A stretch of DNA of 64,000 nt from Minwuia sp. (GTDB taxonomy: Bacteria > Pseudomonadota > Alphaproteobacteria > Minwuiales > Minwuiaceae), in contig JARGPL010000015.1 in the NCBI GenBank assembly GCA_029210175.1, positions 124,001 through 188,000 on the forward strand, in the 5' to 3' direction. Of the stretch, positions 12,053 through 59,084 are shown in pieces. Made by a program: the position numbers and the translations under genes. The number at the start of each line of letters is the position of its first letter. Within the stretch, counting starts at the first letter, position 1. The notes beneath the pieces were generated by a model. That model was not told where the DNA came from. It saw nothing but the letters and a program-made list of their open reading frames with translations, and did no database searches.

Positions 12053-12691
12053 ATGCTGCGCAATCCTGGTCTGATCGGGATGGTTGTCGTTGTCTTCTGG
12101 ATCATCGGGTATTTCTGGCTCGCATCGGATGAGAATCCATCACCCACGTCCTTCCAGCCTGAAGGCCATTTCAAGACATTCCACGCGGCTGACAACAGTC
12201 CGGAGCGGTCCGAAGAACTCTACAACAGTCTGCGAGGCGATATGGCGGATCGCTATGCGGAGGCATCCGAGCCGTCCGTGATGGGCTATCAGAACTGGCA
12301 GCGGTTCAATACTGCCCCATACCTTTCCGCCACGCATGGCGACCGCTTCGTGAACAATTATGGCAACGCACTGGCTGGGGATTACACCAATGTCCTGACA
12401 GGGGCCGCGATGCCCGCCGGTGCGATTCTGGCCAAGGACGCCTTCGCCGTGACAGAGGAAGGTCAGGTCTTCGCCCAGTCTCTGTTCGTGATGGAAAAAC
12501 TGGGCGCGGGGCGCAGCCCTGAAACAGCCGACTGGCGCTATGTCATGATCACTGCCGCAGGCGAAGTGTATGGCGATTCCATGGGCGAGAACGCCATGAA
12601 GGTGACGTTCTGCCACGAATGCCATCAGCAGGTGGCAGGGCAGGATTACCTGTTCTTCGTGCCGGAAGCGTTCCGCACCGCCAGCAGATGA
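12053..12691 (+). CDS. Cytochrome P460 family c-type haem protein
   Basis: A 212-residue exported haem protein. An N-terminal hydrophobic segment (residues 7-24, GMVVVVFWIIGYFWLAS) acts as signal or anchor to the periplasm. The haem site CHECH is at residues 187-191, close to the C-terminus as in P460 proteins. Cytochrome P460 enzymes oxidise hydroxylamine or bind NO; many relatives outside nitrifiers have unknown roles. A ggaggag site precedes the ATG. The 3' end overlaps the convergent NUDIX gene by 46 bp. Confidence 0.8.
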   Translation: MLRNPGLIGMVVVVFWIIGYFWLASDENPSPTSFQPEGHFKTFHAADNSPERSEELYNSLRGDMADRYAEASEPSVMGYQNWQRFNTAPYLSATHGDRFVNNYGNALAGDYTNVLTGAAMPAGAILAKDAFAVTEEGQVFAQSLFVMEKLGAGRSPETADWRYVMITAAGEVYGDSMGENAMKVTFCHECHQQVAGQDYLFFVPEAFRTASR

Positions 12692-41565: not shown

Positions 41566-43389
41566 ATGTCCCGCAACGCCGCACGCAAGAAGCAGATCGA
41601 CAGCAGCCCGCGCAGCAATGCGCCCGGCGACGCGCCCACCATCGGGCGCCAGATCATGCAGGCCGGCACGTTCCAGATGATGGCGACGCTGCAGACTGTT
41701 GATGATGATCGCAAGCCCACACGCAACGATCTGAAGCGCGCCGTACAACTGCTGAAACAGGGCAGCAAGCAGGCCGGCCAGGCCAGGTATGATGACGCGG
41801 CCCTGTCGTTCCTGCAGGCGCACAAGCTTGACCCAGCGAACGCCGATACCCTGCTGGTGCTTGGTAACAACCTGCGCCACGCTGGGCAGATCCAGGCGGC
41901 GGTGCATGTCATGGAAAAGGCGCTGAAGGTATCGGGCGAAGACCCGGAGATCATCTATGGTGTCGGCTTGCTGGCGCAGGACCTGGGCATGCTGCCCGCG
42001 GCGGAGAACATGTTCGCGCTGATCATGCAGCGGACGCCAGACGACAGCCGCGGCCCCATCGCCATGGCATCGGCAAAGCGCGCCAGCGGCAACTACGAAG
42101 CGGCGATCGACACCCTGAAGTTCGCTGTCCAGGGCAAGCCGGAAGATCACACCCTTTGGCAGGCACTGGGTGTCACGGTCGCAGAGGCGCAGGGTGTGGA
42201 AGCGGCCCGCCCGTTCTTCGAGGAAGCGTTGCGGTTGCAGCCGACGTTCGACATTGCCTTCGCCAACCTTGGCCATGCCCTGACGGCGGAAGGCCGTTTC
42301 ACGGAATCACTGCCTTATCTCGACAAGGCGGTGCAGATGCGCCCCGATGATGCGGACACTCGATTCAACTATGCGACATCGTTGCTGGGAACCGGCGACT
42401 TCGCCAGGGGCTGGGAACAGTATGAATGGCGTCTGGACAGGAAACGCGGTGACTCGGTCGTCTTCGTGCATGATCTGCCGCGCTGGCAGGGTGAGGACAT
42501 TTCGGACAAGACCCTGCTGATCTCGGATGAGCAGGGCATTGGTGACGCGATCATCTTCGCCAGCGCCTTTCAGGAAGTGATTGACCGCGCCGGTCACGTG
42601 ATCATCGAATGTGACCACAGGCTGGTCAGCTGGTTCCAGCGATCTTTCCCGGCAGCCACTGTGCACCGCCACATCACGTTCCGGTCCAACAACAAGATCC
42701 ATCGTCACTATGGATGGCTCAAGGATGATGGTGTGCCGCAGCCGGACCTGTTCATCCCCTCCGGCTCCATCTTCAGCCTGCTTCGCCCCGACCTTGAAAG
42801 CTTTGACCGCCCGGTTCCCTATCTGACGCCGGATCCGGAACGGGTCGCGTTCTGGAAGCAGCGGTTTGACGCTCTTGGGCCAGGGCCAAAGGTCGGGCTG
42901 TGCTGGTCCGGTGGCTTCGTTACCCCGATCCGGTCCAAAGGCTATATGTCGCTCAGCGATTTCGCACCGTTCTTCGATCTCAAGGACAAGGGCGCGCACT
43001 TCATCGACGTCATGTACAAGGACGCGTCGGAAGATCGGACGAAGCTGAAAGCCGAATTCGGCGTCGATCTGCATGACTGGGACGATATCGACCGGCGCAA
43101 TCAGATCGATGAGGCTGCGGCCTATACGGCGGCACTGGATTTCGTGGTCTCCATTTCGTCGTCGCCGGTCGCGATTGCCGGCGCAATGGGTGTGCCGACC
43201 GTGACCTTGCTGCACAAGGCTGACCGCTTTCACTTTGGTGCGGGGATCGAACCCTGGTTTCCCAAGGCGGAGATCTTCGTTGCCGCAAACCGTTCGGAAT
43301 GGCCAGCCGTGCCCTGTCGGGCTGCGCGCGACGCCACCGCACGTCGGCTTGGTCTGACGTCGGGGGAAGGGGCACATGCCGATGCATGA
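41566..43389 (+). CDS. TPR protein with C-terminal glycosyltransferase-like domain
   Basis: A 607-residue protein. Residues 1-55 are polar and flexible. TPR repeats occupy about 60-290 (ARYDDAALSFLQAHKLDPAN, RFTESLPYLDKAVQMRPDDA). The C-terminal half is a GT9/GT41-like domain with LLISDEQGIGDAIIFASAF, GPKVGLCWSGGF and SSSPVAIAGAMGVPTVTLL. Similar TPR-glycosyltransferases act in flagellin modification. It heads an operon of nonulosonate genes and faces flbT, so it is the best candidate for the enzyme that attaches the sugar to flagellin. It overlaps the next gene by 14 bp. Confidence 0.85.
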   Translation: MSRNAARKKQIDSSPRSNAPGDAPTIGRQIMQAGTFQMMATLQTVDDDRKPTRNDLKRAVQLLKQGSKQAGQARYDDAALSFLQAHKLDPANADTLLVLGNNLRHAGQIQAAVHVMEKALKVSGEDPEIIYGVGLLAQDLGMLPAAENMFALIMQRTPDDSRGPIAMASAKRASGNYEAAIDTLKFAVQGKPEDHTLWQALGVTVAEAQGVEAARPFFEEALRLQPTFDIAFANLGHALTAEGRFTESLPYLDKAVQMRPDDADTRFNYATSLLGTGDFARGWEQYEWRLDRKRGDSVVFVHDLPRWQGEDISDKTLLISDEQGIGDAIIFASAFQEVIDRAGHVIIECDHRLVSWFQRSFPAATVHRHITFRSNNKIHRHYGWLKDDGVPQPDLFIPSGSIFSLLRPDLESFDRPVPYLTPDPERVAFWKQRFDALGPGPKVGLCWSGGFVTPIRSKGYMSLSDFAPFFDLKDKGAHFIDVMYKDASEDRTKLKAEFGVDLHDWDDIDRRNQIDEAAAYTAALDFVVSISSSPVAIAGAMGVPTVTLLHKADRFHFGAGIEPWFPKAEIFVAANRSEWPAVPCRAARDATARRLGLTSGEGAHADA

Positions 43390-44083
43390 TCTTGTCCCCA
43401 TCATTGTTCAGGCGCGGACCGGGTCCACCCGGTGCCCGGCGAAGGTGATGCGCCCCGTCGCGGGGCGTCGTCTGATCGATTTCACGCTGGATGCGCTGGA
43501 ACGCTGCCGTGCCGCGCGGCCGATGATCGTTGCAACCTCCACTGATCCGCTGGATGACGCGCTGGCCGCCCATTGCACGGCGCGTCATGTGCCGGTTGTG
43601 CGGGGATCGCTCGACAATGTTGCGGGCCGGTTTCGTGACGTGCTGGACCGGTTTCCGGTTGCCGGCTTCGTTCGCGTGTCAGGGGACAGCCCGCTGATCG
43701 ACCGTCGGCTGGTGGACGCGGCGGTGGAGAAATTTCGCGAAACCGGTGCCGACCTGGTGACCAACGTCTTTCCGCGCAGCTTCCCCAAGGGTCAGTCCGT
43801 GGAAGTGATCCGCACCGACGTCTTTCTGGCGGCTGAGGCGGAGATGACCGACGCGTCCGACCGGGAACATGTCACCCCCTGGTTCTACCGCAGCCCGGAG
43901 CGTTACAAGATCGTCAATATCGAAGCGCAATCGGGCGACGGCGAGGCATCGATGGTCGTGGATACGGAAGAGGATTTCGAGCGCTTCCGGGCAATCGCCC
44001 ACACGCTCGACGCCCCGTCATGGCGCTATCACTGGGAAGAACTCGCGGCCCTGCCGAGAACGGCGGGCAGGATCGTGGCGTGA
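43376..44083 (+). CDS. SpsF-type sugar cytidylyltransferase
   Basis: A 235-residue nucleotidyltransferase related to SpsF/KdsB/NeuA. It likely makes the CMP-sugar that the transferase uses. N-terminal IIVQARTGSTRCPAKVMRPV binds nucleotide; TSTDPLDDALAAHC and GFVRVSGDSPLIDRRLVDA carry the Mg-binding aspartates; DREHVTPWFY is typical of the SpsF group. The usual STRLPGK reads STRCPAK here. It sits between the transferase and a Gfo/Idh/MocA gene, overlapping both. Confidence 0.85.
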   Translation: MPMHDLVPIIVQARTGSTRCPAKVMRPVAGRRLIDFTLDALERCRAARPMIVATSTDPLDDALAAHCTARHVPVVRGSLDNVAGRFRDVLDRFPVAGFVRVSGDSPLIDRRLVDAAVEKFRETGADLVTNVFPRSFPKGQSVEVIRTDVFLAAEAEMTDASDREHVTPWFYRSPERYKIVNIEAQSGDGEASMVVDTEEDFERFRAIAHTLDAPSWRYHWEELAALPRTAGRIVA

Positions 44084-45099
44084 ACGGTTCTGACCGCCCT
44101 GCGATTCAGGCCGGAATCATTGGTCTGGGCGTCGGGGAACGCCATATTGGCGGCTATGAACGCCACCCCGCCTGCAAGGTCACGCGGCTGGCCGACTTCT
44201 GCGCCGAGAAGCGCGCGGATGTGCTGAGGCGGTTTCCGGATCGGGAAATTGCCGACAATGCCGACGCGGTGCTGAACGATCCGGATGTTTCCATCGTTTC
44301 CATAGCGTCCCACGATCAGGACCACTTTGCCCAGGTCATGCGGGCAATCGATGCCGACAAGCATGTCTTCGTCGAGAAACCGCTGGTGCTGAATATCGAT
44401 CACGCCCGCCAGGTCCGCGCGGCCCTGAACGCGAAACCACATCTGAAAATCTCGTCGAACCTGATCCTGCGTCGCTGCCCGCGCTTTCTGAAGCTGCGGG
44501 CTGATATTGCCGCGGGAGACTACGGGCAGTTGTTCCACATCGATGCCGATTATCAATATGGCCGCATCCACAAGCTGATCAGCGGTTGGCGTGGCACGCA
44601 GCCGGGATACAGCCTGGTGCTGGGCGGCGCGGTTCACATGGTGGATCTGGTGCTCTGGTTAACGGGTGACCGTGCGGTGGAAGTCACTGCGATGGGCAAC
44701 AGTATCGCGACGGCTGACAGTGGTTTCGCCAACTTCGACCTGGTGCAGGCGCTGGTCCGCTTCGAAAGCGGGATGGTCGCCAAGATCGGCTGCAATGGCG
44801 GCTGTGTGCACCCGCATTTCCACAAGCTGGAGGTCTACGGCACGAACGCCAGTTTCGTTAACGGTTTGGAAAGTGCGTTTGTTTACCGTGATCGTCATCC
44901 CGGCAGAAGGCCGGAAACAATGACGGAGGCCTATCCCGGTGTCGACAAGGGTGACCTGTTACAGGATTTCGTGGACGCGGTCCTTCATGACCGTGCGCCG
45001 GAGGTGAATGCAGATGACGTATTCCGCTCCCTCGCCGTCTGCTTTGCCATCGAACGTGCCGCTCATACCGGACGATCCGTCGCTGTCGAGCAGCTCTGA
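44080..45099 (+). CDS. Gfo/Idh/MocA family oxidoreductase
   Basis: A 339-residue NAD(P)-dependent sugar dehydrogenase/reductase. The Rossmann motif is AGIIGLGVGERHIGGYERHP; the family EKP is present in HVFVEKPLVLNIDHARQV; YSLVLGGAVHMVDLVLWLTG carries the catalytic His/Asp region. Start GTG 44080 overlaps the upstream stop (GTGA). Such enzymes appear in several legionaminic and related sugar clusters, where they oxidise a nucleotide sugar or a nonulosonate carbon. The exact step is unknown. Confidence 0.87.
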   Translation: MNGSDRPAIQAGIIGLGVGERHIGGYERHPACKVTRLADFCAEKRADVLRRFPDREIADNADAVLNDPDVSIVSIASHDQDHFAQVMRAIDADKHVFVEKPLVLNIDHARQVRAALNAKPHLKISSNLILRRCPRFLKLRADIAAGDYGQLFHIDADYQYGRIHKLISGWRGTQPGYSLVLGGAVHMVDLVLWLTGDRAVEVTAMGNSIATADSGFANFDLVQALVRFESGMVAKIGCNGGCVHPHFHKLEVYGTNASFVNGLESAFVYRDRHPGRRPETMTEAYPGVDKGDLLQDFVDAVLHDRAPEVNADDVFRSLAVCFAIERAAHTGRSVAVEQL

Positions 45100-46255
45100 A
45101 TCAACCGAATTTCGCCAGATCCATTTTGGCCGCCCGATCATCGGCGACGCCGAACGGCGTGCCGTCATGGAGGTTCTGGACAGCCCGATACTGGTGCACG
45201 GCCCCCGCGCGCTGAAGTTCGAAGAGGACTTCGCCGCATTCGCGGGTGGTGGGGAGGCGATTACCGTATCGTCCTGCACCGCCGGGCTGCACCTGGGTTA
45301 CTTCCAGCTCGGCCTGGGGCCGGGGGATGAGGTGATTGTACCCGCCCAGACCCATACGGCCACAGCTCACGCGGTCGAATATGTCGGTGCGAAGCCCGTC
45401 TTCGTCGATGCCGAGCGGGAAACCGGCAACATCGACATCGATCAGATCGAAGCGGCGATCACGCCAGCGACCAGAGCGATATCGGTGGTGCATTACCTCG
45501 GCATGCCGGTCGACATGGTGCGGATCAACGCAATCGCCGCCAGACATGGCCTGTTCGTCATGGAGGACGCGGCGCTGGCTGTCGGGACCTATCTGGATGG
45601 CATTCATGCCGGCCTGATGGGGGACATGGGCTGCTTCTCCTTCTACCCGGTCAAGCACATGACCACGGCAGAGGGCGGCATGGTCCTGACCCGCGACAGC
45701 GCCATTGGCGAACGTATCCGCCGCAAGAAGGCCTTCGGGCTGGACCGCACGGTGATGGAGCGCAAGGAACCCGGCGTCTATGACGTCACCCAGCTCGGCT
45801 TCAACTACCGCATGAACGAGATGCAGGCAGCCATGGGCGTCGAGCAGCTGAAGCAGGTTCAAGGGTTTCTTGACGTGCGTCACGCCAACTACGAACGGCT
45901 GGAAGCGGGCCTGTTGGATCTGGAAGGTCTGCACCTGTTTCAGTCCAGCAATGGCCGGTTCCACAGCAGCCACTATTGCCTCTCCGTCGTCCTCACCGGG
46001 GCCCGTGCCTCCCGCCGGTCAGAAGTGGCCGCAGCGCTGAATGCGCAGGGGGTAGGCACCAGCGTCTATTACCCCGGTCCGGTGCCGGGCCTGTCGTACT
46101 ACCGCGACAAGTACGGGGTCCGCGCCGAAGACTATCCCAATGCCACGGAAATCAGCCGGTGTTCCATCGCGCTGCCCGTCGGCCCGCATCTGAACCATGA
46201 CGACATGGATTTCATCATTCACGCCATGAAGAAGGCTTTGCACGATGTCCGTTGA
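45008..46255 (+). CDS. DegT/DnrJ/EryC1/StrS sugar aminotransferase
   Basis: A 415-residue PLP aminotransferase that adds an amino group to a nucleotide keto-sugar (LegC, PseC and SpsC belong here). The PLP lysine is Lys216 in YPVKHMTTAEGG; FVMEDAALAVGTYLDG and FGLDRTVMER with GFNYRMNEMQAAMG fit. The reading frame starts 92 bp inside the upstream gene, at ATG 45008 or 45014 with GGAGG before them; no later start exists before the conserved RQIHFGRPIIG. It overlaps the dehydratase gene by 11 bp. Confidence 0.92.
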   Translation: MQMTYSAPSPSALPSNVPLIPDDPSLSSSSESTEFRQIHFGRPIIGDAERRAVMEVLDSPILVHGPRALKFEEDFAAFAGGGEAITVSSCTAGLHLGYFQLGLGPGDEVIVPAQTHTATAHAVEYVGAKPVFVDAERETGNIDIDQIEAAITPATRAISVVHYLGMPVDMVRINAIAARHGLFVMEDAALAVGTYLDGIHAGLMGDMGCFSFYPVKHMTTAEGGMVLTRDSAIGERIRRKKAFGLDRTVMERKEPGVYDVTQLGFNYRMNEMQAAMGVEQLKQVQGFLDVRHANYERLEAGLLDLEGLHLFQSSNGRFHSSHYCLSVVLTGARASRRSEVAAALNAQGVGTSVYYPGPVPGLSYYRDKYGVRAEDYPNATEISRCSIALPVGPHLNHDDMDFIIHAMKKALHDVR

Positions 46256-47360
46256 AACAAGCTTCCACACAGAAGAATCGGCCATGATCGGCAAGAAGGT
46301 CGTCATCATCGGCGGCGCTGGCTTCATCGGCCACAACATGGCGCTGAGGATGAAGTCGCTGGGTGTCGAGGTGTCGGTGATCGACAGCCTTGGCGTCAAC
46401 AACTACTACGCCATCGAGCGGGAGCGGTACACGAACCCGAACGGTGAGGTCTATCTGAACTTCATCAAGCAGCGGATGAACCTGCTGCATCAGGCCCAGG
46501 TGCCGTTCATCGAGGCGGATGCGCGCGACTATCACGCCCTGTCGGAGGCGCTTGAGGATCTGAACCCGGACTTCATCGTGCATCTGGCCGCCGTGTCCCA
46601 TGCCAACCGGTCCAACAAGGACCCCTATTCGACGTTCGATCATTCGCTGCGGACACTGGAGAACGCGCTGGACGCGTCCCGCTCCACCCGCCTGAACGTG
46701 AAGCGTTTCGTCTATTTCTCGTCCTCCATGGTCTACGGCACCTTCGCCGACGGCATCGTGGATGAGGAAACCGATTGCAATCCGATGGGCATCTACGGCG
46801 CGCTGAAGTTCGCGGGCGAGAAGATGGTCATTGCCTACAATCAGGTCTTTGATCTGCCCTATACGATTGTCCGGCCGTCGGCCCTCTATGGCGAACGCTG
46901 TGTCAGCCGCCGGGTCGGACAGGCGCTGATCGAGAACGCGCTGCGTGGCAATGCGCTGACCATCAATGGTGACGGCTCCGACTGTCTCGACTTCACCTAT
47001 ATCCAGGACCTGGTCGGTGGTGTCATCGCGGCCCTGTCAACCGATGCGGCTGCCAACGAGGTCTTCAATCTGACCTATGGTCAGGGGCGTTCCCTGAACG
47101 AGATGGTGGGGATCATCCAGGAACATTTCCCCGGTGTCGAAGTGCGCCACAATGAACGCGACAGCCTGATGCCGGAGCGTGGAACCCTGTCGGTCGAGAA
47201 GGCAAAGAGCCTGATCGGTTACCGCCCGAGCCATCCGCTGGACGTCGGTTTCGTGAACTACATCAACTGGTACAAGGACAACTGGGCCAGCTTCATCGGT
47301 TCGAACAGTGATCCGGAAGATGGACAGGTGGTCTACCTCAAGCGGCGTGCCTGGGCGTGA
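46245..47360 (+). CDS. NAD-dependent sugar epimerase/dehydratase
   Basis: A 371-residue extended SDR. The NAD motif is VIIGGAGFIGHNMALRM; FVYFSSSMVYG carries the Ser and IYGALKFAGEKM the Tyr/Lys pair; IVRPSALYGERCVSRR is typical. An insertion at residues 55-80 (YAIERERYTNPNGEVYLNFI) is unusual. It could be the 4,6-dehydratase (LegB role) that supplies the keto-sugar to the DegT enzyme, or a later epimerase. It overlaps neighbours on both sides. Confidence 0.88.
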   Translation: MSVETSFHTEESAMIGKKVVIIGGAGFIGHNMALRMKSLGVEVSVIDSLGVNNYYAIERERYTNPNGEVYLNFIKQRMNLLHQAQVPFIEADARDYHALSEALEDLNPDFIVHLAAVSHANRSNKDPYSTFDHSLRTLENALDASRSTRLNVKRFVYFSSSMVYGTFADGIVDEETDCNPMGIYGALKFAGEKMVIAYNQVFDLPYTIVRPSALYGERCVSRRVGQALIENALRGNALTINGDGSDCLDFTYIQDLVGGVIAALSTDAAANEVFNLTYGQGRSLNEMVGIIQEHFPGVEVRHNERDSLMPERGTLSVEKAKSLIGYRPSHPLDVGFVNYINWYKDNWASFIGSNSDPEDGQVVYLKRRAWA

Positions 47361-48055
47361 ATGCCAATGCCCCCATGGCGCTGCGGCCAGATGACTGGCT
47401 CGCGGGTCTGCTCGGCAAGCCGGCCTGGCATCTGACGCCGTCGGCAGAGCCGAACCGGCCTGTCGAGGTGCCGACGGGGCAGCCCTGCTTCATTGATGCC
47501 CGCCTGCCTGTCACACGGACCGAGGTGGCGCGCAAACTGGAAGACGCCGGATTCCGCCTGGTCGATACGGGCATGAACTTCGAACGCCCGACCTGGGCTG
47601 CGGCGCACAGTCGGCATTGCCGCCTGTCAGTACCGTCCGACCGGGCCGCGGTCGAGGACATCGCCAGCCGGAACTTCACTTTCAGCCGTTTCCACCTGGA
47701 TCCGATCGTCAGCAATGATGCGGCAAACGAGATCAAGCGCCAGTGGGCCGGCAACCACTTCGCGGGCACCCGGGGCGACGGCATGATCGTGGCCGAGGTG
47801 GAGGGGGAGACCGTGGGTTTTCTGCTTTATCTGCTGTCGGGTGATGTTCTCACCATCGATCTGGTTGCCGTCGACAGCCGCCACAGGGGCAAGGGTCTGG
47901 CGAGGGACATGATCGCCTTTGCCGATTCACTTGTTCCCGGTGTTGCGATCCTGCGGGTCGGCACGCAACTGGCCAACGCACCGTCCCTGCGCAGTTACAT
48001 GGGCGACAACTTTCGCCTGATTTCGTCCAGCTACGTCTTTCACTATCACGGGTGA
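47357..48055 (+). CDS. GNAT-type acyltransferase (sugar N-acetyltransferase candidate)
   Basis: A 232-residue GNAT. The acetyl-CoA loop is seen in VAVDSRHRGKGLARDMIAFA; the N-terminal 100 residues (WHLTPSAEPNRPVEVPTGQP) resemble the WecD/PseH/SpsD type, which acetylates amino groups on sugars. GTG 47357 overlaps the upstream stop. Placed between the aminotransferase/dehydratase genes and neuB, it most likely makes the 4-N-acetyl group before condensation. Confidence 0.83.
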   Translation: MNANAPMALRPDDWLAGLLGKPAWHLTPSAEPNRPVEVPTGQPCFIDARLPVTRTEVARKLEDAGFRLVDTGMNFERPTWAAAHSRHCRLSVPSDRAAVEDIASRNFTFSRFHLDPIVSNDAANEIKRQWAGNHFAGTRGDGMIVAEVEGETVGFLLYLLSGDVLTIDLVAVDSRHRGKGLARDMIAFADSLVPGVAILRVGTQLANAPSLRSYMGDNFRLISSSYVFHYHG

Positions 48056-49074
48056 GCGCCATGCAGATCGCGGGCAGGAACACGAACGACCGGACCTTTG
48101 TCATTGCCGAGGTCGGCAACAATCACGAAGGCGACTTCGGTCTGGCACAGGAACTGGTGCATCTCGCCGCCGCCGCTGGTGTGGACGCAGTCAAGTTCCA
48201 GACCTTCAACACCGAACAGTTCATCGCCCCCATCGATGCCGCGCGCTTTCAGCGGATGAAGGGGTTCGAACTGAGCCATGACCAGTTCGCTGCGCTTGGC
48301 GTGCTGGCGCGGAAGGTCGGGTTGAGTTTCATCTCGACGCCGCTGGACATGGAGGCTGCGGTCTTCCTGAACGACCATGTGGATGCGTTCAAGGTCGCCA
48401 GTTCCGACAACACCTTCTGGCCGCTGATCGACTATGTTGCCGGAACGGCGAAGCCGGTGATCGTCTCCACAGGGCTGGCTGACATGGACGAGATCCAGCA
48501 GGTCGTCTGCCGCGTCAAGTCACGCTGGATTGCCGACAAGGTCGACCCCGGTCTGGGCGTGCTGCATTGCGTATCCGCCTATCCGACCCCGCCGGAGCAC
48601 GCGAATGTCGCTGCGGTACGGACGATGATCGACACGCTGTGTGGTTGTGAAGTCGGCTATTCCGATCACACCAGTGGCAATGATGCGGCCCTGGCTGCCG
48701 TTGCCATGGGCGCGCGCATCGTGGAGAAACATTTCACCATCGCGCATGACCACAGCGATTTCCGCGATCACCAGCTTTCCGCCAACCCGGCCGAGATGCA
48801 GGACCTCGTGGCCCGCATTCGCCTGACCGAGACCCTGATGGGCACCGGCCAGGTCGCGATGGCAGAGATTGAACGGGACACCGCGCCCCTGATACGCCGG
48901 TCCATCGCCGCCCGTCATCCGCTTTCCGCCGGGCATCAGGTGTCCGGTAGTGACCTGATCTGGGTGCGGCCAGGTGACGGCCTGCCACCGGGGCGCGAGG
49001 CGGAAGTGATCGGGCGCACGCTGGTCGCGCCGATGGCCATGGGCGACCGTTTCACCGCCGAACTGCTGGGCTGA
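48052..49074 (+). CDS. Nonulosonic acid (sialic-type) synthase NeuB/SpsE family
   Basis: A 340-residue TIM-barrel synthase that joins phosphoenolpyruvate to a six-carbon N-acetyl sugar to form a nine-carbon nonulosonic acid. Seen: FVIAEVGNNHEGDFGLAQEL, DAVKFQTFNTEQFI, SFISTPLDMEAAVFLND, KPVIVSTGLADMDEI, GYSDHTSGNDAALAAVAMGA, EKHFTIAHDHSDFRDHQLS, and a C-terminal SAF domain (HPLSAGHQVSGSDLIWVRPG). Start GTG 48052, coupled to the GNAT gene. Which nonulosonate is made cannot be decided from the sequence. Confidence 0.92.
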   Translation: MSAMQIAGRNTNDRTFVIAEVGNNHEGDFGLAQELVHLAAAAGVDAVKFQTFNTEQFIAPIDAARFQRMKGFELSHDQFAALGVLARKVGLSFISTPLDMEAAVFLNDHVDAFKVASSDNTFWPLIDYVAGTAKPVIVSTGLADMDEIQQVVCRVKSRWIADKVDPGLGVLHCVSAYPTPPEHANVAAVRTMIDTLCGCEVGYSDHTSGNDAALAAVAMGARIVEKHFTIAHDHSDFRDHQLSANPAEMQDLVARIRLTETLMGTGQVAMAEIERDTAPLIRRSIAARHPLSAGHQVSGSDLIWVRPGDGLPPGREAEVIGRTLVAPMAMGDRFTAELLG

Positions 49075-49079
49075 GCCGC

Positions 49080-50903
49080 ATGTGCGGGATCGCAGGACAC
49101 TTCGGGCCTGAACAGCCCCAGCCGGAGCGGCAGCAGGCGTGCCTGACGGCCATGGGACGGCGTGGTCCGGACGCCGCCGGCCGTTTCGATACGGAAATTG
49201 GGTCGAACTGGCTGACCCTGCTGCACACCCGGCTTGCCATCATCGATCTGGACAGCCGCGCCGATCAGCCGTTCCGGCGTGACGGGCTGACGGTCGTCTT
49301 CAATGGCGAGATCTACAACTACGTTGAAATACGCGAGACCCTGCGCGCGCGCGGGATCATCTTCACCACCCAATCCGATACCGAGGTCCTGCTGGAGGCC
49401 TATCGGGCCTGGGGTGATCGGTTGGTCGATCATATCGAGGGCATGTGGGCGTTCGCGATCCATGATGCAACGCGCCGTCGCCTGCTGATTTCCCGCGATC
49501 CCTTTGGTGAGAAACCGCTTTATTGGCAGGACAGGGGGGAGGGGTTCCGCTTCGCCTCCGAGATCAAGGCGCTGGCGGCCCTGAACGGTGTTCGCCCGTC
49601 CGTGAACGAGGAAACGGTTCGTCGCTTTCTCGTCAATGGATACAAGTCGCTCTACAAGTCCGGCGCGCTGTTTCACGCCGGTGTCAATGAATTGCCGCCG
49701 GGCCACAATCTGGTGGTGGGCGACAATCGTGGTGTGACCATGGAAGCCTACTGGCGCCCGGAATACCGTCCGGACCGTGGCATGTCGTTCGGCACCGCAG
49801 TGGACGGCCTGCGCCACCATCTGGAAGAGAGCCTGCGCCTGCGCCTGCGTGCCGATGTGCCGATTGCGTTCTGCCTGTCCGGTGGTGTCGACAGCGCGGC
49901 ACTCGCATCGTTCGCGGCGAAGCGGCACGGCGTCGATGTGGCCTCGTTCTCGATCATCGATCCGGACCCGCGTTACGACGAAAGCGACAATATTCGCGCG
50001 ACGGTGCGGGACCTCGGCTGCCAGCACCGGGAAATCCACCTGGAACAGTCCCGCGATCTTGACCGCTTTGCGGATCTGGTTGCCTATCACGACAAGCCGG
50101 TGATCACCGCGTCCTACTACGTCCACAGCATGCTGTCGGAGGCGATGCGGGCCGATGGTTTCCGGGTCTCCGTCTCAGGCACCGGCGCCGACGAACTGGT
50201 GACCGGCTACTATGACCATTTCAATCTGCATCTGAAGGCGATGGAGGGCCATCCGGAACGTGATGCCCGCCTGGCCGACTGGAACTGCCACGTGCGTCCC
50301 ATCGTGCGGAACCCGCATCTGCAGAACCCCGATCTCTACAGCCAGCAGCCGCAGTTCAGGGACCACATCTACCTCAACCGCGATGTCTTCTCGGATTACC
50401 TGACCACACCCTTCGATGAACCCTTCACCGAGAGCGCCCTGTCCGACGATCTGCTGCGCAATCGCATGCTGAACGAACTGACGACGGAGGCGGTGCCGAT
50501 CATCCTCAGGGAAGACGACATGAATTCCATGCGGTCATCGGTGGAAAACCGCAGTCCCTATCTGGATCGGGCGCTGTGCGACTTCGCCTACACGATCCCG
50601 CCCGAGCATCTGATCCGCGACGGCCACGCCAAGGCGCCGCTGCGTGCGGCGTCCCGTGGTGTGCTGAACGACAAGGTGCGCCTGGACCGCCACAAGAAGG
50701 GCTTCAATGCGGCATTCCGTAGCCTGTTCGACCTCGACAACGCAAGGACACGGGAACGCATTCTGGACGATGGACCGATCTTCGATCTGGTGAAGCGAGA
50801 CCGGATCGAGGCGGCCATGCGTGAACCTGACCTGCCAAACAGTTTCTCCAAGTTCCTGTTTTCCTTCGTTTCAGCGAAACTCTTCATGGAGCAGTGGGCA
50901 TGA
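49080..50903 (+). CDS. AsnB-type glutamine-hydrolysing amidotransferase
   Basis: A 607-residue asparagine-synthetase B family protein. Cys2 of MCGIAGHFG starts the glutaminase domain, with RRGPDAAGRF, LAIIDLDSRADQPF and VFNGEIYNY; the synthetase domain has the PP-loop AFCLSGGVDSAALASFAAK and SGTGADELVTGYYDH. It lies 5 bp after neuB and is coupled to a sugar amidotransferase gene, so it may deliver ammonia or amidate the sugar acid rather than make asparagine. Free asparagine synthesis is the alternative. Confidence 0.88.
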   Translation: MCGIAGHFGPEQPQPERQQACLTAMGRRGPDAAGRFDTEIGSNWLTLLHTRLAIIDLDSRADQPFRRDGLTVVFNGEIYNYVEIRETLRARGIIFTTQSDTEVLLEAYRAWGDRLVDHIEGMWAFAIHDATRRRLLISRDPFGEKPLYWQDRGEGFRFASEIKALAALNGVRPSVNEETVRRFLVNGYKSLYKSGALFHAGVNELPPGHNLVVGDNRGVTMEAYWRPEYRPDRGMSFGTAVDGLRHHLEESLRLRLRADVPIAFCLSGGVDSAALASFAAKRHGVDVASFSIIDPDPRYDESDNIRATVRDLGCQHREIHLEQSRDLDRFADLVAYHDKPVITASYYVHSMLSEAMRADGFRVSVSGTGADELVTGYYDHFNLHLKAMEGHPERDARLADWNCHVRPIVRNPHLQNPDLYSQQPQFRDHIYLNRDVFSDYLTTPFDEPFTESALSDDLLRNRMLNELTTEAVPIILREDDMNSMRSSVENRSPYLDRALCDFAYTIPPEHLIRDGHAKAPLRAASRGVLNDKVRLDRHKKGFNAAFRSLFDLDNARTRERILDDGPIFDLVKRDRIEAAMREPDLPNSFSKFLFSFVSAKLFMEQWA

Positions 50904-52051
50904 ATATGCGTTTCTGTCAGTCCTGCGTTCTGCCGGACAGCCGCCCCGGTATCACCATCGGCGCAGATGGCGTCTGCAATGCCTGCCACGGTCATCGCCG
51001 CAACCGGCTGGAGATCGACTGGGCAACGCGGGAACAACACCTGAATGACGTGGTGGCGTGGGCAAAGGGCCGGAACGCGGCCTATGACTGCATCGTGCCC
51101 GTGTCCGGTGGCAAGGACAGTTTCTGGCAGGTCGCCCGCTGTCTCGACATGGGTCTGAAGGTACTGGCTGTGACGTGGAAGTCGCCGGGACGCAATGCCC
51201 TGGGCCAGTCCAATCTGGATGCCCTGGTGCGACTGGGTGTTGATCATGTGGATTTCACCATCGACCCGTCCGTCGAGGCGCGTTTCATGCGCCGGACCCT
51301 GATCGAGACAGGGTCGAGCGCAGTGCCGATGCACCTGGCCATCTTCGCCATTCCGATGCGCTTCGCGGCCCGCCTGGGTGTGCCGCTGATCGTCTGGGGC
51401 GAAAGTCCGTTCATGGAATATGGCGGCGATGCCGGGGACAGTGATCTGGACCTGCTGAACCACGCCTGGCTGAAACGCCATGGTATCCTGCAGGGCCGTG
51501 AGGCGCAGGACTGGATTGGCGATGAGTTGAGTGCCCGTGAACTGGAACCCTTTACCCCACCGGCAGAAGCCGAGTTCGAAGCTGCAGACATTCGCTCCGT
51601 CTTCCTGGGCTATTACCTGCCATGGGACCCGTCGGAGAGCCTGCGGGTCGCGGAAGCCAACGGTTTCAAGCGCCGGGCCGAGGGGCCGAAGGTCGGCCTT
51701 TACGACTATGCCGACATCGACTGCGATTTCATCTCGATCCATCACTGGTTCAAGTATCCCAAGTTCGGTTTCACGCGCCTGTTCGACAATCTTTCGCTGG
51801 AAATCCGCAATGGCCGGATGACTCGTGATCAGGCGCTCGCCATCGTATCGCGTATGGGTGATCAACGCCCCGATGCCGACATTGCGCGCGCGCTGACCTT
51901 CATGGACCTGTCATCGACAGCCTTTGTGGAGCTGGAGGAAAAGTTCCGCGACCGCACGATCTGGCAGCTGCGCGATGGCCACTGGGTTGTCCCCGGCTTC
52001 CCGGTTTCGGATTGGCTCTGGCCTGTTGCTGCCATGGACCAGGCAGCATGA
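50900..52051 (+). CDS. N-acetyl sugar amidotransferase (WbpG/PseA type)
   Basis: A 383-residue PP-loop ATPase of the family that turns an N-acetyl group on a sugar into an acetamidino group (WbpG in LPS, PseA in flagellin pseudaminic acid). The zinc finger has RFCQSCVLPDSRPG and GVCNACHGH; the PP-loop is IVPVSGGKDSFWQVA; PLIVWGESPFMEYGGDAGD and FSIHHWFKYPKFGF-like SIHHWFKYPKFGFTR follow. ATG 50900 overlaps the asnB stop. Known partners (HisH/HisF-like ammonia donors) are missing; AsnB could take their place. Confidence 0.88.
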   Translation: MNMRFCQSCVLPDSRPGITIGADGVCNACHGHRRNRLEIDWATREQHLNDVVAWAKGRNAAYDCIVPVSGGKDSFWQVARCLDMGLKVLAVTWKSPGRNALGQSNLDALVRLGVDHVDFTIDPSVEARFMRRTLIETGSSAVPMHLAIFAIPMRFAARLGVPLIVWGESPFMEYGGDAGDSDLDLLNHAWLKRHGILQGREAQDWIGDELSARELEPFTPPAEAEFEAADIRSVFLGYYLPWDPSESLRVAEANGFKRRAEGPKVGLYDYADIDCDFISIHHWFKYPKFGFTRLFDNLSLEIRNGRMTRDQALAIVSRMGDQRPDADIARALTFMDLSSTAFVELEEKFRDRTIWQLRDGHWVVPGFPVSDWLWPVAAMDQAA

Positions 52052-52392
52052 GGCTGGCTGAAAAGGACCCGCCACGGGTATTCGAGCCCACCCCCGGCAT
52101 CGCCATCGCCGACTGTGGTGACGTGCATCTGTCGCCTGATGAGCAGGTGACGCTGGTCACGCGTTCCGGTCGCCGGATGGACGTGGCGGCGAAGGACTTC
52201 GGTTTCTACGCCACGCCTTCGATCAATGGGCGCCTGAAGGGGGAGGGGTTTCGCACCGCCCTTGTCCGCAACATGCGGGGCCAGATCTACGTGATGGTGG
52301 TGGAGCAGGACCGCATGGACCGCTTCGACGCCTATTGCGTCGCGGAACAACAGACAGTGCTGGAGTGGCTGGATGAACGCCCCCTGGACTGA
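52048..52392 (+). CDS. Small uncharacterised protein of the nonulosonate operon
   Basis: A 114-residue protein I do not recognise. It is mixed alpha/beta and has no signal peptide or membrane segment. The central KDFGFYATPSINGRLKGEGF and RGQIYVMVVEQDRMDRFDAY regions look like a compact fold; the end EQQTVLEWLDERPLD is helical. Start ATG 52048 overlaps the amidotransferase stop, and the 3' end overlaps the acyl-ligase gene by 20 bp, so it is translated with both. A binding or regulatory role in amidation or acyl transfer is a guess. Confidence 0.75.
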   Translation: MRLAEKDPPRVFEPTPGIAIADCGDVHLSPDEQVTLVTRSGRRMDVAAKDFGFYATPSINGRLKGEGFRTALVRNMRGQIYVMVVEQDRMDRFDAYCVAEQQTVLEWLDERPLD

Positions 52393-54988
52393 GGACACGC
52401 TTCAAGGCGTCCTGGCCGCCAACCGCGCCCGCATGGCCGGGGAGGATTTCCTGACCCTGGTCGCCGCTGACGGTTCGGAACAGAGCTTCACCTATGACCA
52501 TGTGTTCGAGGCGGCTGAGCATTGGGCAGCGCGCTATCGGGCTTCCGGCGTTTCCCAGGGTGACCGGGTCGTGGTCATCCTGCGCCATGGCAGGGACCTC
52601 TATGCGGCCTACATCGGCGCGATCCTGCTCGGTGCTGTGCCCGCCATGTTCGCTCATCCGTCGCCGAAACTTTCGGAAAGCGTCTATTTCGAGACCGTCC
52701 GGGCATTGCTGGACAGCAGCCGCGCGAAGCTGCTGGTGACCTACGCCGATCTGGCCCCGAAACTGGCATCACTGGTTGATGCGTTGCCGACCTTCGATGC
52801 GTTGCTGGTGGCCGGGCAGGGCGAGGCCGTGACGGCGGCCCCCACGATGCCGGAACGCGTGGACCCCGATGCCCCGGCATTCCTGCAGTATTCGTCCGGT
52901 ACGACGGGCCTGAAGAAGGGCGTGACGATCTCTCACCGCGCCCTGCTCTGGCAGGTCAGCAACTATGGCGACATGATTGGCGCGGACGACCGTGACGTGA
53001 TTGTCAGCTGGTTGCCGCTCTATCACGACATGGGGCTGATCACCTGCTTCTTCCTGCCGCTGATTCGGCGTTGCCGCCTGGTGGCGATCTCGCCATTCGA
53101 CTGGGTGCAGCGACCGACGCTCTGGCTGGATGCAGTCAGCCGCCACAGGGGAACGCTCGGCTGGATGCCGAACTTCGCTTACAGCTTCATGGCGCGCAAC
53201 GCACCGACTGGCGACTGGGACCTGTCCAGCATGCGCGGGCTGGTGAATTGTTCGGAACCGATCACTGCCACTTCCCATCGTGCCTTCCTTGACCGTTTCG
53301 GTGCTCACGGCTTCCTGCCTGATGCGCTCGCCGGGTCCTATGCCATGGCGGAGACAACCTTTGCTGCGACGTCAGGCGGCTTTGATGCCCCGTTGCAGGT
53401 CGAGACGGTGGATGTCGCGGCCCTGACCGAAAATCAGGTGGCGCGCCCTGCGCATATTGGCCGGGAACTGGTGTCTTCGGGCATCGCCCTGCCACAGACC
53501 GGACTGACGATCCGCGGCGCAGACGGATCCATCCTGCCTGACCGGCAGGTGGGCGAGATCGAGATCAGCAGCCCGTCCTTGTTCCAGAGCTATGACGGAC
53601 AGTCCGGCCGCACCGCAGAAGTACTGCGGGATGGCCGCTACCTCAGCGGTGATCTGGGTTATCTGGCCAACGGGCACCTGTTCGTCGTCGGGCGCAAGCG
53701 CGATCTGATCATCGTCGGTGGCAAGAACATCTATCCCCACGATGTGGAGGCGCTGGCCTGCACGGTGGACGGTGTGCTGCCGGGCAGGGCGGTTGCCCTG
53801 GGTGATGCGGATGCGGTGGCGGGTACCGAAAGACTGATCCTGATCGCCGAGAGCGATCAACCCGAAGAGGCATGGTCAGGTATCGCGGACTGCATCCGTG
53901 AAACCATTGCTGCGGGAACCGAGATCGTGCCGGCGGATGTAAGGATCGTTGCGCCGCGCTGGCTGAGAAAATCGACATCGGGGAAGATGGCGCGTGGCGA
54001 AAACCTGAAGCGTTATCATGCACTTCTGATCGATGTTTCGCGCCATGCTCTGGACCGACCTGCGGTGATCGGGACCAGCATGGCAGAGGCTGTCCGCCGG
54101 GTAGTGGTGGACGAAATCCTTGCGGGACGCCCGGTCGATGATGATGCATCGCTGATCCGCAGTGGTCGGATCGATTCCTTCTCCATCGTGAACCTGATCC
54201 TGGCCCTGGAACAGCGGTTCGGTGTTTCAATTCCTGAAACGGTCACTGCCGATCCGGACGCCCTGGACAGCATTTCGGGGATCACGCGCACGGTTGAGCG
54301 CCTGAAAGCCGGGGAAACTCTCGCCGCTGAAACATCTGATCTGACTGCGGATCAGGTGCCGATGATCACGGATGATCCGGTTGCCCTGCCCACCAGCAAG
54401 GTCGGGTTCTGGACCTGGTACTATCGGTTCACGTTTCGCCGGCTCGGCATTGCCCATGGCCCGGGCCTGCGTGTGCTGGGGCCGATCCTGCTGCGTCCCG
54501 ACGGCGACCCGCGCAACATCCGTCTTGGCCGGTCAGTCACCCTGATGCCCTGGGTGGATCTGAAGGTGCGGGAGGATGGTCGGATCATCCTGGGGGATGG
54601 TGCGGCGGTTGACACGACCGCAAGGCTGGTCGCGGCGCGCGACGGCACGATCCACATTGGTGACCGGGCGCAGGTGGCTTTCTCGTCGATCATCAATGCC
54701 GGGGCCGATGTCACGATTGGCCGCGACAGCGCCACGGCGGGGCATTGCACCATCATCGCCTCGGAACACCGCTTCGACAGTCGGGAGCCGATCATGCGCC
54801 AGGGTTATGTGCATGAACCGGTGCTGATCGGCGCTGATGTCTGGCTGGCGTCCGGGGTCACGGTGACGCCCGGATCACGGATTGGCAATGGCGCGATCAT
54901 CAGCGCGCGGTCCACTGTATCCGGCGACATTCCCGGTTATACCGTCGCCGCCGGAACCCCTGCGCGGGTCATCAAGCGCCGGGGCTAG
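52373..54988 (+). CDS. Acyl-AMP ligase / acyl carrier / left-handed beta-helix acyltransferase fusion
   Basis: An 871-residue, three-module protein. Residues 1 to about 555 form an adenylating domain of the fatty acyl-AMP ligase type: QYSSGTTGLKKGVTISHRA (from about 172), VSWLPLYHDMGLI, SGDLGYLANGHLFVVGRKRD, and Lys538 in KSTSGKMARG. About 565-645 is a carrier domain with Ser602 in SGRIDSFSIVNLI as phosphopantetheine site. About 690-871 is a hexapeptide-repeat acyltransferase with His799 in ASEHRF and the ending GTPARVI. Inferred job: activate an acid, load it on the carrier, transfer it to a sugar. GGAG precedes the ATG. Confidence 0.88.
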   Translation: MNAPWTEDTLQGVLAANRARMAGEDFLTLVAADGSEQSFTYDHVFEAAEHWAARYRASGVSQGDRVVVILRHGRDLYAAYIGAILLGAVPAMFAHPSPKLSESVYFETVRALLDSSRAKLLVTYADLAPKLASLVDALPTFDALLVAGQGEAVTAAPTMPERVDPDAPAFLQYSSGTTGLKKGVTISHRALLWQVSNYGDMIGADDRDVIVSWLPLYHDMGLITCFFLPLIRRCRLVAISPFDWVQRPTLWLDAVSRHRGTLGWMPNFAYSFMARNAPTGDWDLSSMRGLVNCSEPITATSHRAFLDRFGAHGFLPDALAGSYAMAETTFAATSGGFDAPLQVETVDVAALTENQVARPAHIGRELVSSGIALPQTGLTIRGADGSILPDRQVGEIEISSPSLFQSYDGQSGRTAEVLRDGRYLSGDLGYLANGHLFVVGRKRDLIIVGGKNIYPHDVEALACTVDGVLPGRAVALGDADAVAGTERLILIAESDQPEEAWSGIADCIRETIAAGTEIVPADVRIVAPRWLRKSTSGKMARGENLKRYHALLIDVSRHALDRPAVIGTSMAEAVRRVVVDEILAGRPVDDDASLIRSGRIDSFSIVNLILALEQRFGVSIPETVTADPDALDSISGITRTVERLKAGETLAAETSDLTADQVPMITDDPVALPTSKVGFWTWYYRFTFRRLGIAHGPGLRVLGPILLRPDGDPRNIRLGRSVTLMPWVDLKVREDGRIILGDGAAVDTTARLVAARDGTIHIGDRAQVAFSSIINAGADVTIGRDSATAGHCTIIASEHRFDSREPIMRQGYVHEPVLIGADVWLASGVTVTPGSRIGNGAIISARSTVSGDIPGYTVAAGTPARVIKRRG

Positions 54989-56272: not shown

Positions 56273-58093
56273 TCAGGCGACTGCCGCGTCGTCTGCGAAG
56301 GCTTCATGCACGCCCCAGGCAACCGGCACCTGAACAGGCAGGTCCATCATGATCTGCGCGTAGGCCTTGCCCTGATTGTCGGTGCGCAGGCTGGCAACGC
56401 CGCCACCACCGAGGGCTTCGTGCAGGAAGAAGTTCATCGCGCCGATGCCGGGCAGGTCATAGCGGTCCACCTTGATCTCCCCATCGAAGACATGGGCGAA
56501 ATAGTCGCCGACCACTTCCGGGGTCAGGGCGTGACGCAGCAGGGGCAGGTATTCCGGCGCGCGGGCAATGATGCCGATGTTGGCATGTGCGCCCTTGTCG
56601 CCGGACCGGCCATGGGCGATGGCGAGCAGCGGCACCGTCACCAGGGGGCCGTCCGGCGCGGCAGCGACCACCGGGTCCGGCTGCTGAATGGTTCCGGCGT
56701 CAAAGCCACCTTTGGTTGGAATCGCGACAGGAATCTCGGTGCCGTCGAGCAGGACCTTCACGTCGAATTCGGTCTTGGCAACAAGGCAGGAGAACAGGCG
56801 GACCACCGGCTGGGCCTTGGGCCGTCCACCGCCAAAACCCGTGGTGCCTTGACTGAAGGAGGTGCCGGCGGGCGCGATTTCCCGGGCAAACATGGAGAGC
56901 GCCTTCGGATCCGGGTGCTTCACGGCCAGTTTCATGATCGCTTCCCGGGCGGCGCGGGTGCGGGAATGGGCACCATACATCGCTTCTCCGCCGAGGATCT
57001 CCACATTGGTTTCCGTGTAGTCGCCCATGTTCTGCTCCGCCAGCATCCGCCGCGTGCGCTTCAGGATGGCCTCGGCGGTCTTGTGGCTCTTGCCGACGGC
57101 ATCCCAGCCGCCGATGACCATGGACGCCACGGCCTTGAAGCCGTCCTGGAACGTGGCAGAGACCTTGTAATGGGGGGATGGAGCGGTGCCCTTCGCACCG
57201 GTAACCCGCACGCGGTCCTTGCCGATTTCCTCCACCGCGACCTGCGTGAAGTCACAGGTGACATCGGGCAGCAGATAGGCGGTCGGATCACCAATCTCGT
57301 AGAGCAGCTGTTCCTTCACCGTGCCGGGCACGACAATGCCGCCGGTGCCATCCGGCTTGGTGACGACAAAGCTGCCGTCAGCGGCGCATTCCGCGATCGG
57401 ATAGCCGATGTCATCCCAGTCGGGCACGTCCTGATAGTCGGTGAACAGGCCGCCTGTCGCCTGGGCACCGCATTCCAGGATATGGCCACAAAGGCTGCCC
57501 GCCGCCAGCAGGTCATAGGCGTCATCGGCCCAGCCGAATTCATGCATCAGGGGACCGAGAGTCACAGCGGAATCGACCGCCCGTCCCGTCACCACGATCT
57601 GCGCCCCGGCGTCCAGCGCACGGGCCACCGGAATTGCGCCCAGATAGGCATTGATTGACCAGCACTTGTCGGGGAAGGCTGCACCGGAGAACATTTCGGT
57701 GATACCGGCCTTGCGCAGCGCTTCCTCGCGCGCCAGCAGGTCGTCGCCCTCCACATGGGCCACCTTGATCTCCACCCCGGCCTCCGTAGCCAGGGCACGG
57801 ATGGCATCGGCGCAGGCCTTCGGGTTCACGCCACCGGCGTTGGAAACCACACGGATGTTCTTTTCCGCGATTTCCCGAATGACCTGCTTCAGCGCGACAG
57901 CCACGAAATCGACGGCGTAACCGGCATTCGGATCCTTGGCGCGCATCCGCGCCATGATCGACATCGTGATCTCTGCCAGATAGTCGAAGACGAGGTAATC
58001 GACCTCTGCACGGCGAACCAGCTGCGGTGCCGCCACCCCGGAATCGCCCCAGAAACCGGATGCGCCACCAATGCGAACGATCTTGTCAGTCAT
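56273..58093 (-). CDS. AtuA/DUF1446 family protein
   Basis: A 606-residue protein of the AtuA family, known from acyclic terpene (citronellol/geranyl-CoA) breakdown but widespread in alphaproteobacteria with other roles. Seen: IVRIGGASGFWGDSGVAAPQ, YLVFDYLAEITMSIMARMR, VVSNAGGVNPKACADAI, DAGAQIVVTGRAVDSAVTLG and the C-terminal AIAHGRSGDKGAHANIGIIA. No other atu genes are nearby. GGGGAGG lies before ATG 58093. The biochemical activity of the family is not settled. Confidence 0.88.
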   Translation of the reverse strand: MTDKIVRIGGASGFWGDSGVAAPQLVRRAEVDYLVFDYLAEITMSIMARMRAKDPNAGYAVDFVAVALKQVIREIAEKNIRVVSNAGGVNPKACADAIRALATEAGVEIKVAHVEGDDLLAREEALRKAGITEMFSGAAFPDKCWSINAYLGAIPVARALDAGAQIVVTGRAVDSAVTLGPLMHEFGWADDAYDLLAAGSLCGHILECGAQATGGLFTDYQDVPDWDDIGYPIAECAADGSFVVTKPDGTGGIVVPGTVKEQLLYEIGDPTAYLLPDVTCDFTQVAVEEIGKDRVRVTGAKGTAPSPHYKVSATFQDGFKAVASMVIGGWDAVGKSHKTAEAILKRTRRMLAEQNMGDYTETNVEILGGEAMYGAHSRTRAAREAIMKLAVKHPDPKALSMFAREIAPAGTSFSQGTTGFGGGRPKAQPVVRLFSCLVAKTEFDVKVLLDGTEIPVAIPTKGGFDAGTIQQPDPVVAAAPDGPLVTVPLLAIAHGRSGDKGAHANIGIIARAPEYLPLLRHALTPEVVGDYFAHVFDGEIKVDRYDLPGIGAMNFFLHEALGGGGVASLRTDNQGKAYAQIMMDLPVQVPVAWGVHEAFADDAAVA

Positions 58094-58166
58094 GAATGCC
58101 TCCCCTTGAAGCGCGCAAATTAGCACGCGCTGTTGCGGGGAACCAATGGCGTCTGTCGCTGGTGAC

Positions 58167-59084
58167 TTATGCGTCGACCTTCTTTTCGCGATAGACGATG
58201 TAGAGGCCGCTGCCGACAATGATCGACGCGCCGATCCAGGTCCATTGGTCGGGGAAGGTATCGAAGATGAAGTAGCCCAGCAGCGTCGCGCCGATCAGCT
58301 GGCCATAGCCGAAAGGGGCCACGACGGATGCACTGGCATGCTGGAATGCCTTCACCACGAAGTAATGGCCGAACCCGCCCAGCGCCCCCATGGAGATGAA
58401 CAGGATCCAGTGCCAGGTGGAGCGCGGGATCTCCACGCCGTTGACCAGCAACACACTGGCAATGATGCAGCCAACCAGCGCTGTATAGGTGATCGTGGTT
58501 TCCGGCGTATCGGCGGCGGAAATCCTGCGCGTCAGGACCTGGTAGAAGGCATAGCAGATCGTATTGGCGACCACGAGCAGGGTAGCCCAGTGGAATTCCG
58601 TGCCCCCTGGCCGGATGATGATCAGCGCGCCACCGAAACCGATGATGACGGCAACCCAGCGGCGCATGCCGACCTTTTCACCCAGAAAGGGAACCGACAG
58701 CGCGGTCAGCAGGATCGGGCTGGTGAAGCTGATCGATGCGGCAAGTGTCAGGTCAACGAACTGCAGGGCGTAGAAATACAGCGCCGTGCAGGAAAACAGC
58801 AGCAGCGACCGGATGGCCTGCACGCCGGGCCTGTGGGTGACGAACAGCGATCGGCCAAAGCGCGGCGCGAAGGCGATGACCATGAACACGAAATGGCCCG
58901 CATAGCGCGCCCAGACGATCTGACCGTAGGGATAACCCTCCGCGCCCAGGTACTTCACGGTCGCGTTCATCGGCGGAAACATGGCGATGGCCAGGCACAT
59001 GAACAGGATACCGGTCACCACCTTGGGCTGCCAGACGTCGGTCTTGGCCGCCGAAGGATGCGGCTGGTCATTCGTGAGGGTCAT
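58167..59084 (-). CDS. EamA/DMT family transporter
   Basis: A 305-residue inner-membrane protein with about ten predicted helices in two EamA halves (ILFMCLAIAMFPPMNATVKY; VGCIIASVLLVNGVEI; GHYFVVKAFQHASASVVAPF). The second half has the typical APFGYGQLIGATLLGYFIFD. Such carriers export metabolites or amino acids; the substrate is unknown. A charged tail REKKVDA ends it. It lies upstream of the AtuA-family gene with a 73-bp gap. Confidence 0.9.
   Translation of the reverse strand: MTLTNDQPHPSAAKTDVWQPKVVTGILFMCLAIAMFPPMNATVKYLGAEGYPYGQIVWARYAGHFVFMVIAFAPRFGRSLFVTHRPGVQAIRSLLLFSCTALYFYALQFVDLTLAASISFTSPILLTALSVPFLGEKVGMRRWVAVIIGFGGALIIIRPGGTEFHWATLLVVANTICYAFYQVLTRRISAADTPETTITYTALVGCIIASVLLVNGVEIPRSTWHWILFISMGALGGFGHYFVVKAFQHASASVVAPFGYGQLIGATLLGYFIFDTFPDQWTWIGASIIVGSGLYIVYREKKVDA

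Follow-up and report, generated by a model that had tools for sequence, protein, structure and literature searches.

A predicted acyl-AMP ligase, carrier and beta-helix acyltransferase fused in one chain at the end of a nonulosonate-type sugar operon of Minwuia

The last gene of a sugar operon in Minwuia sp. encodes an 871-residue protein that, as read from its sequence, is a fatty acyl-AMP ligase (FAAL), a carrier and a left-handed beta-helix (LbH) acyltransferase in one chain. The favored reading, to which we give a probability of roughly 0.6, is that this fusion acts as a self-loading acyltransferase on the sugar produced by its own operon, to which it would add an unusual acyl group. The gene lies in the window (the whole stretch of 64,000 nucleotides that was analyzed), where it is preceded by ten genes on the same strand that overlap or lie only a few bases apart. 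The operon and the domains of the fusion are as follows.

41566..43389, + strand: TPR protein with a weakly GT9-like C-terminal part; layout as in the flagellin glycosyltransferase FlmG
43376..44083, + strand: CMP-sugar cytidylyltransferase-like protein (CTP_transf_3)
44020..45099, + strand: Gfo/Idh/MocA oxidoreductase; the true start may lie further in
45008..46255, + strand: DegT/PseC-like aminotransferase
46245..47360, + strand: NAD-dependent epimerase/dehydratase
47357..48055, + strand: WecD-like GNAT acetyltransferase
48052..49074, + strand: NeuB-family synthase (PF03102, 212 bits; below the NnaB and PseI equivalog cut-offs)
49080..50903, + strand: AsnB-type amidotransferase (TIGR01536, 383 bits, cut-off 267.1)
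50894..52051, + strand: WbuX-type N-acetyl sugar amidotransferase (NCBIfam TIGR03573, 306.8 bits, cut-off 203.2)
52048..52392, + strand: conserved 114-residue protein of no known family (pathway marker, sm126); overlaps the WbuX stop (ATGA) and, by 20 bp, the fusion gene
52373..54988, + strand: FAAL-carrier-LbH fusion protein (871 residues, open reading frame)
52373..54022, + strand: FAAL (acyl-AMP ligase) domain, residues 1-550; Lys538 at 53984-53986
54089..54307, + strand: carrier (PP-binding) domain, residues 573-645; Ser602 at 54176-54178
54401..54985, + strand: left-handed beta-helix acyltransferase domain, residues 677-871; His799 at 54767-54769

The fusion protein scores above the Pfam cut-offs for AMP-binding (residues 31-407, 2.2e-53), PP-binding (residues 585-623, 22.4 bits, cut-off 20.8) and Hexapep (residues 817-851, 32.2 bits, cut-off 27). 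This bears out the first-pass annotation, which had placed a ligase, a carrier and a transferase in one chain; Lys538 (in LRKSTSGK), the SGTTG loop, Ser602 (in RIDSFS) and His799 (in ASEHRF) are also where it had put them.

FAALs usually serve lipids, polyketides and peptides, and their adenylate-forming domain converts a carboxylic acid and ATP to an acyl-AMP. The first 550 residues of the fusion have FAALs as their closest PDB relatives and contain the SGTTG loop and the catalytic lysine of that fold. The FAAL-type insertion region aligns with FAALs such as 3pbk with gaps of only 1-3 residues. From YAMAE to GIALP there are 47 residues, compared with 30 in a CoA-ligase-like paralog of the same genome (L005), and the approximately 17 extra residues are, by this comparison, the FAAL-type insertion of the N-terminal domain. 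The insertion is about 16 residues shorter in the copy from genome G368 (L105). The top NCBIfam matches to these 550 residues come from families of long-chain ligases and fatty acyl-AMP ligases, and all stay below the curated cut-offs.

The carrier follows directly behind the ligase, with a serine of the DSF/L type (Ser602) that is kept in four sequences. In a low-confidence structure model of the carrier and LbH parts (pLDDT 64), the carrier matches DltC/ACP chains (Z about 10, rmsd 1.6-1.7). As substrates FAALs accept holo-ACP but not CoA (PMC8460268), and FAAL-ACP didomain enzymes such as HapA and NocH are known (reviewed in PMC11837247). Like the Minwuia protein, these have their own carrier fused to the FAAL and pass the acyl-AMP to the holo-carrier, but they feed polyketide or peptide assembly, whereas in the Minwuia chain a beta-helix acyltransferase follows and the gene is part of a sugar operon. 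The words "sugar" and "glycos" do not occur in the main text of that review.

The beta-helix domain aligns with LacA and the maltose acetyltransferases, and His799, invariant in five sequences, falls on His115 of LacA (1kqa), which we take to be the catalytic residue. By sequence the nearest families are the WbbJ/WcaF/LacA/Vat O-acetyltransferases. These are free, CoA-dependent enzymes, whereas the Minwuia domain has a carrier fused to it and falls well short of every equivalog cut-off: it scores 74.9 bits against the WbbJ model NF007240 (cut-off 243), and so is related to WbbJ but not a member. The first-pass annotation had called the domain a sugar N-acyltransferase; the score against the NeuD/PglB/VioB N-acyltransferase model TIGR03570 (35.8 bits, cut-off 160.8) and the closer likeness to O-acetyltransferases do not favor this. 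In the structure model the beta-helix best matches the N-acyltransferases AntD and WlbB, with Z of 13.8-14.5 but an rmsd of 12. Since the operon already encodes a GNAT for one amino group, a second amino group or a hydroxyl is slightly favored as the acceptor.

Another one-chain arrangement is found in the poly-lysine and poly-ornithine synthetases Pls and PosA, which have an adenylation domain, a carrier and a C-terminal part modeled with three left-handed beta-helices (PMC10522769). In those enzymes, however, the C-terminal part is a membrane domain of about 730 residues with six TM helices that polymerizes amino acids. The fusion has only about 215 residues and one beta-helix there, so it was rejected as a homopolymer synthetase of this kind.

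Full-length relatives with 66-79% identity occur in IMCC3096 (L009), L011 and L105, all keeping Lys538, Ser602 and His799. Identity to the IMCC3096 protein is 76% in the FAAL, 74% in the carrier and 96% in the beta-helix, with 27-65% in the linkers, while 46-48% of the four-fold sites differ. The combination of changed four-fold sites and conserved domains indicates that all three domains are under purifying selection, the transferase most strictly, which rules out a chance read-through joining Hexapep to AMP-binding. Each of the four genomes sampled from the genus (G000, G082, G197, G368) contains the fusion. In G197, a MAG, the beta-helix is interrupted by a frameshift (L010, about position 12607, contig C107), as might be expected if the chain were a decaying or chimeric gene whose carrier is never loaded in life. 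The other three copies are intact, the selection on every domain is strong, and the frameshift may be a sequencing error in the MAG; decay is thus highly improbable.

At the thresholds used, the fusion was found in none of the 381 other genomes of the class and in none of the 398-genome phylum sample. A search of the latter with the LbH domain returned two weak free relatives (G628 and G516) and no fusion, and a plasmid search with the whole protein gave FAAL-length matches only, none covering 80% of the query. In a FAAL tree the fusions, including the window protein, form one fully supported clade, whose sister group is not resolved. In a Planctomycetota MAG (L046) and an Acidobacteria MAG (L039), LbH, carrier and FAAL are three adjacent separate genes; no sugar genes were seen near them, on short contigs that were compared mainly with the genes of the window.

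The upstream genes include a NeuB synthase, a CMP-transferase, an aminotransferase and a dehydratase, the enzymes that mark a nonulosonate pathway. NeuB and the sugar amidotransferase were already recognized in the first-pass annotation, and both are confirmed at the scores listed above. The nine carbons proposed earlier for the sugar are deduced from NeuB; the genome gave no PseG match. NeuB, the DegT aminotransferase and the dehydratase have good scores, but none reaches the equivalog cut-off of a Neu5Ac, Pse or Leg enzyme. A pseudaminic acid pathway was rejected, as the PseI (212.7 against 340) and PseC (286 against 423) scores are too low and PseG is missing. Promoter and terminator scans of the operon gave no more matches than shuffled sequence. 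The structure model of the 114-residue protein is poor (pLDDT 59) and has no PDB match. The same Minwuia genome (G000) has, on contig C31 (L124), another NeuB gene together with an epimerase-like ORF and a further relative of WbuX, and so seems to have two nonulosonate pathways.

The 114-residue protein is a useful marker, being present in 15 of 385 genomes of the class. Eight other alphaproteobacterial genera have all or much of the nine-gene core of the operon. This core is complete around the marker in G298, G097, G211, G081 and G226, and partial, up to the ends of the contig or stretch, in G122, G091, G315 and G032, while G379 and G105 have the marker without core genes. G081 has two tandem copies of the marker. 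The genes beside the core vary. A methyltransferase gene lies there in G097, G091 and G211, and in G032 a methyltransferase-like domain is fused to the marker itself. The Minwuia fusion gene takes its place among these variable tailoring genes of a conserved pathway.

G298 has a methyltransferase and also a free LbH protein of 228 residues, 51% identical to residues 658-870 of the fusion, whose gene lies inside the core operon, flanked by an additional AsnB and by WbuX. Five of the 385 class genomes have LbH relatives at E<=1e-20, every one within the core operon. The sugar-acylation idea of the first-pass annotation depended on homologs lying beside sugar genes, and the G298 protein does so. 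That the same core operon has a free LbH in G298 and a fused one in Minwuia is the strongest evidence that the fusion acts on the sugar of the pathway, and acylation of the operon's sugar by the fusion is well supported by this genomic context. In the alignment the join of the fusion falls just behind the carrier, near residue 650-656.

The G298 gene also bears on the donor. There is no FAAL or carrier within about 45 kb of it, and the nearest families use acetyl-CoA. The beta-helix of the fusion could thus still take acetyl-CoA, with the FAAL-carrier half serving another enzyme and the fusion simply co-locating two tailoring steps; in relatives, the FAAL-carrier unit is joined to other tails, for example a putative SGNH-like domain. 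However, the operon shows no further acyltransferase with an obvious capacity for long acyl groups, and the carrier and transferase remain directly joined in each of the four genomes. A FAAL-carrier unit normally supplies the domain that follows it. A transferase that keeps to acetyl-CoA is therefore unlikely.

The acceptor may be questioned in the same way, since FAALs act mostly in lipid and peptide pathways (PMC11837247), and the FAALs of L079-L091 are fused to a part that, with the tail read by eye, resembles a lipid acyltransferase. The fusion might then modify lipid A, another lipid or a peptide, with its position in the operon incidental. The free LbH homolog that another family has inside the same conserved sugar operon speaks against this, as do the remaining neighbors, which are small-molecule tailoring enzymes, and such an acceptor seems quite unlikely.

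For the favored self-loading acyltransferase, the FAAL domain would activate a carboxylic acid with ATP as acyl-AMP, and the acyl group would then be loaded, without CoA, onto the phosphopantetheine arm that Ser602 would bear in the carrier. The LbH domain is probably trimeric and, with His799 as the general base, would acylate either a hydroxyl or an amino group on the operon's nonulosonate-type sugar or a precursor. A fatty or hydroxy-fatty acid is favored because of the kinship with FAALs, most likely one that is short or medium. The sugar would most likely next be activated with CMP, after which a cytoplasmic glycosyltransferase would attach it to flagellin; the candidate for this step is the TPR protein encoded at 41566. 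The fusion probably arose when a FAAL-carrier module was joined to a free transferase of the same pathway. A tail swap from FAAL-carrier proteins with an SGNH-like third domain is only suggested by sequence score.

In G211 the genes for a flagellin, a TPR protein that matches GT41 and a glycosyltransferase of the Maf type (PF20157, 200 bits) directly precede NeuB, AsnB and WbuX on one strand. Flagellin is found in 10 of 10 marker genera, compared with 165 of 276 in the sample (60%, P=0.005). In this Minwuia genome a flagellin gene, followed by FlaG, starts 19 bases past the window and 9 kb downstream of the fusion, and unrelated genes lie in between. The TPR protein at 41566 has clear TPRs and a weak GT9 match (16.3 bits, Pfam cut-off 22), and its relatives adjoin flagellin or hook genes in G315, where the homolog comes after the flagellin genes, and in L013. 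In layout it resembles FlmG, the flagellin glycosyltransferase of Caulobacter (PMC7591256), with about 600 residues, a TPR half, a GT-like half and a link to a nonulosonate pathway. The G211 gene order, the association of the marker with flagellin and the FlmG-like layout of the TPR protein together suggest that the operon's sugar is probably a flagellin sugar. It is possible, as a more tentative proposal, that a CoA-dependent acetyltransferase of the flagellin nonulosonate pathway captured a FAAL-carrier module and so became CoA-independent, giving a flagellin sugar with a fatty or hydroxy-fatty acyl group and hence a lipidated or hydroxyacylated filament.

The Aeromonas group II flagellin glycosylation islands (PMC7874193) have pseudaminic acid genes beside an ACP, a 3-oxoacyl-ACP reductase and an AMP-dependent synthetase. 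There, however, the components are separate proteins and no hexapeptide transferase is fused to them. A literature search on FAALs or ACPs with viosamine or sugar amidotransferases returned nothing on point. Every part of the fusion thus has a precedent, and the combination in one chain within a nonulosonate operon, not found in the literature searched, is the new aspect. If the favored reading is right, the reach of FAALs, which are known from pathways for lipids, polyketides and peptides, would extend to sugars linked to proteins, and sugar tailoring could draw its acyl groups from a source other than CoA. The free transferase of G298 and the fused one of Minwuia, in the same operon, are a natural pair with which the effect of a fused carrier on donor choice can be tested. 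The operon would mark a conserved, uncharacterized alphaproteobacterial flagellin-sugar pathway with changeable tailoring genes.

Other FAAL arrangements were also seen. FAAL-carrier proteins of up to about 950 residues with a third domain occur in L012-L015, L043, L100 (4180-7026) and L101 (10508-13405). The motifs GSSR ... DG.HMG..NGD make this third domain SGNH-like by eye, and Pfam gave no match to it. In L013 the gene directly follows fliK-, flgD- and flgE-type genes, near two TPR/GT9 proteins. The FAALs of L079-L087, L090 and L091 have about 950-1000 residues, with tails that by eye are lysophospholipid acyltransferase-like (NHxSYxD motif). Elsewhere in the window, on the - strand at 56273-58219, one protein combines AtuA with the AtuA ferredoxin-like domain.
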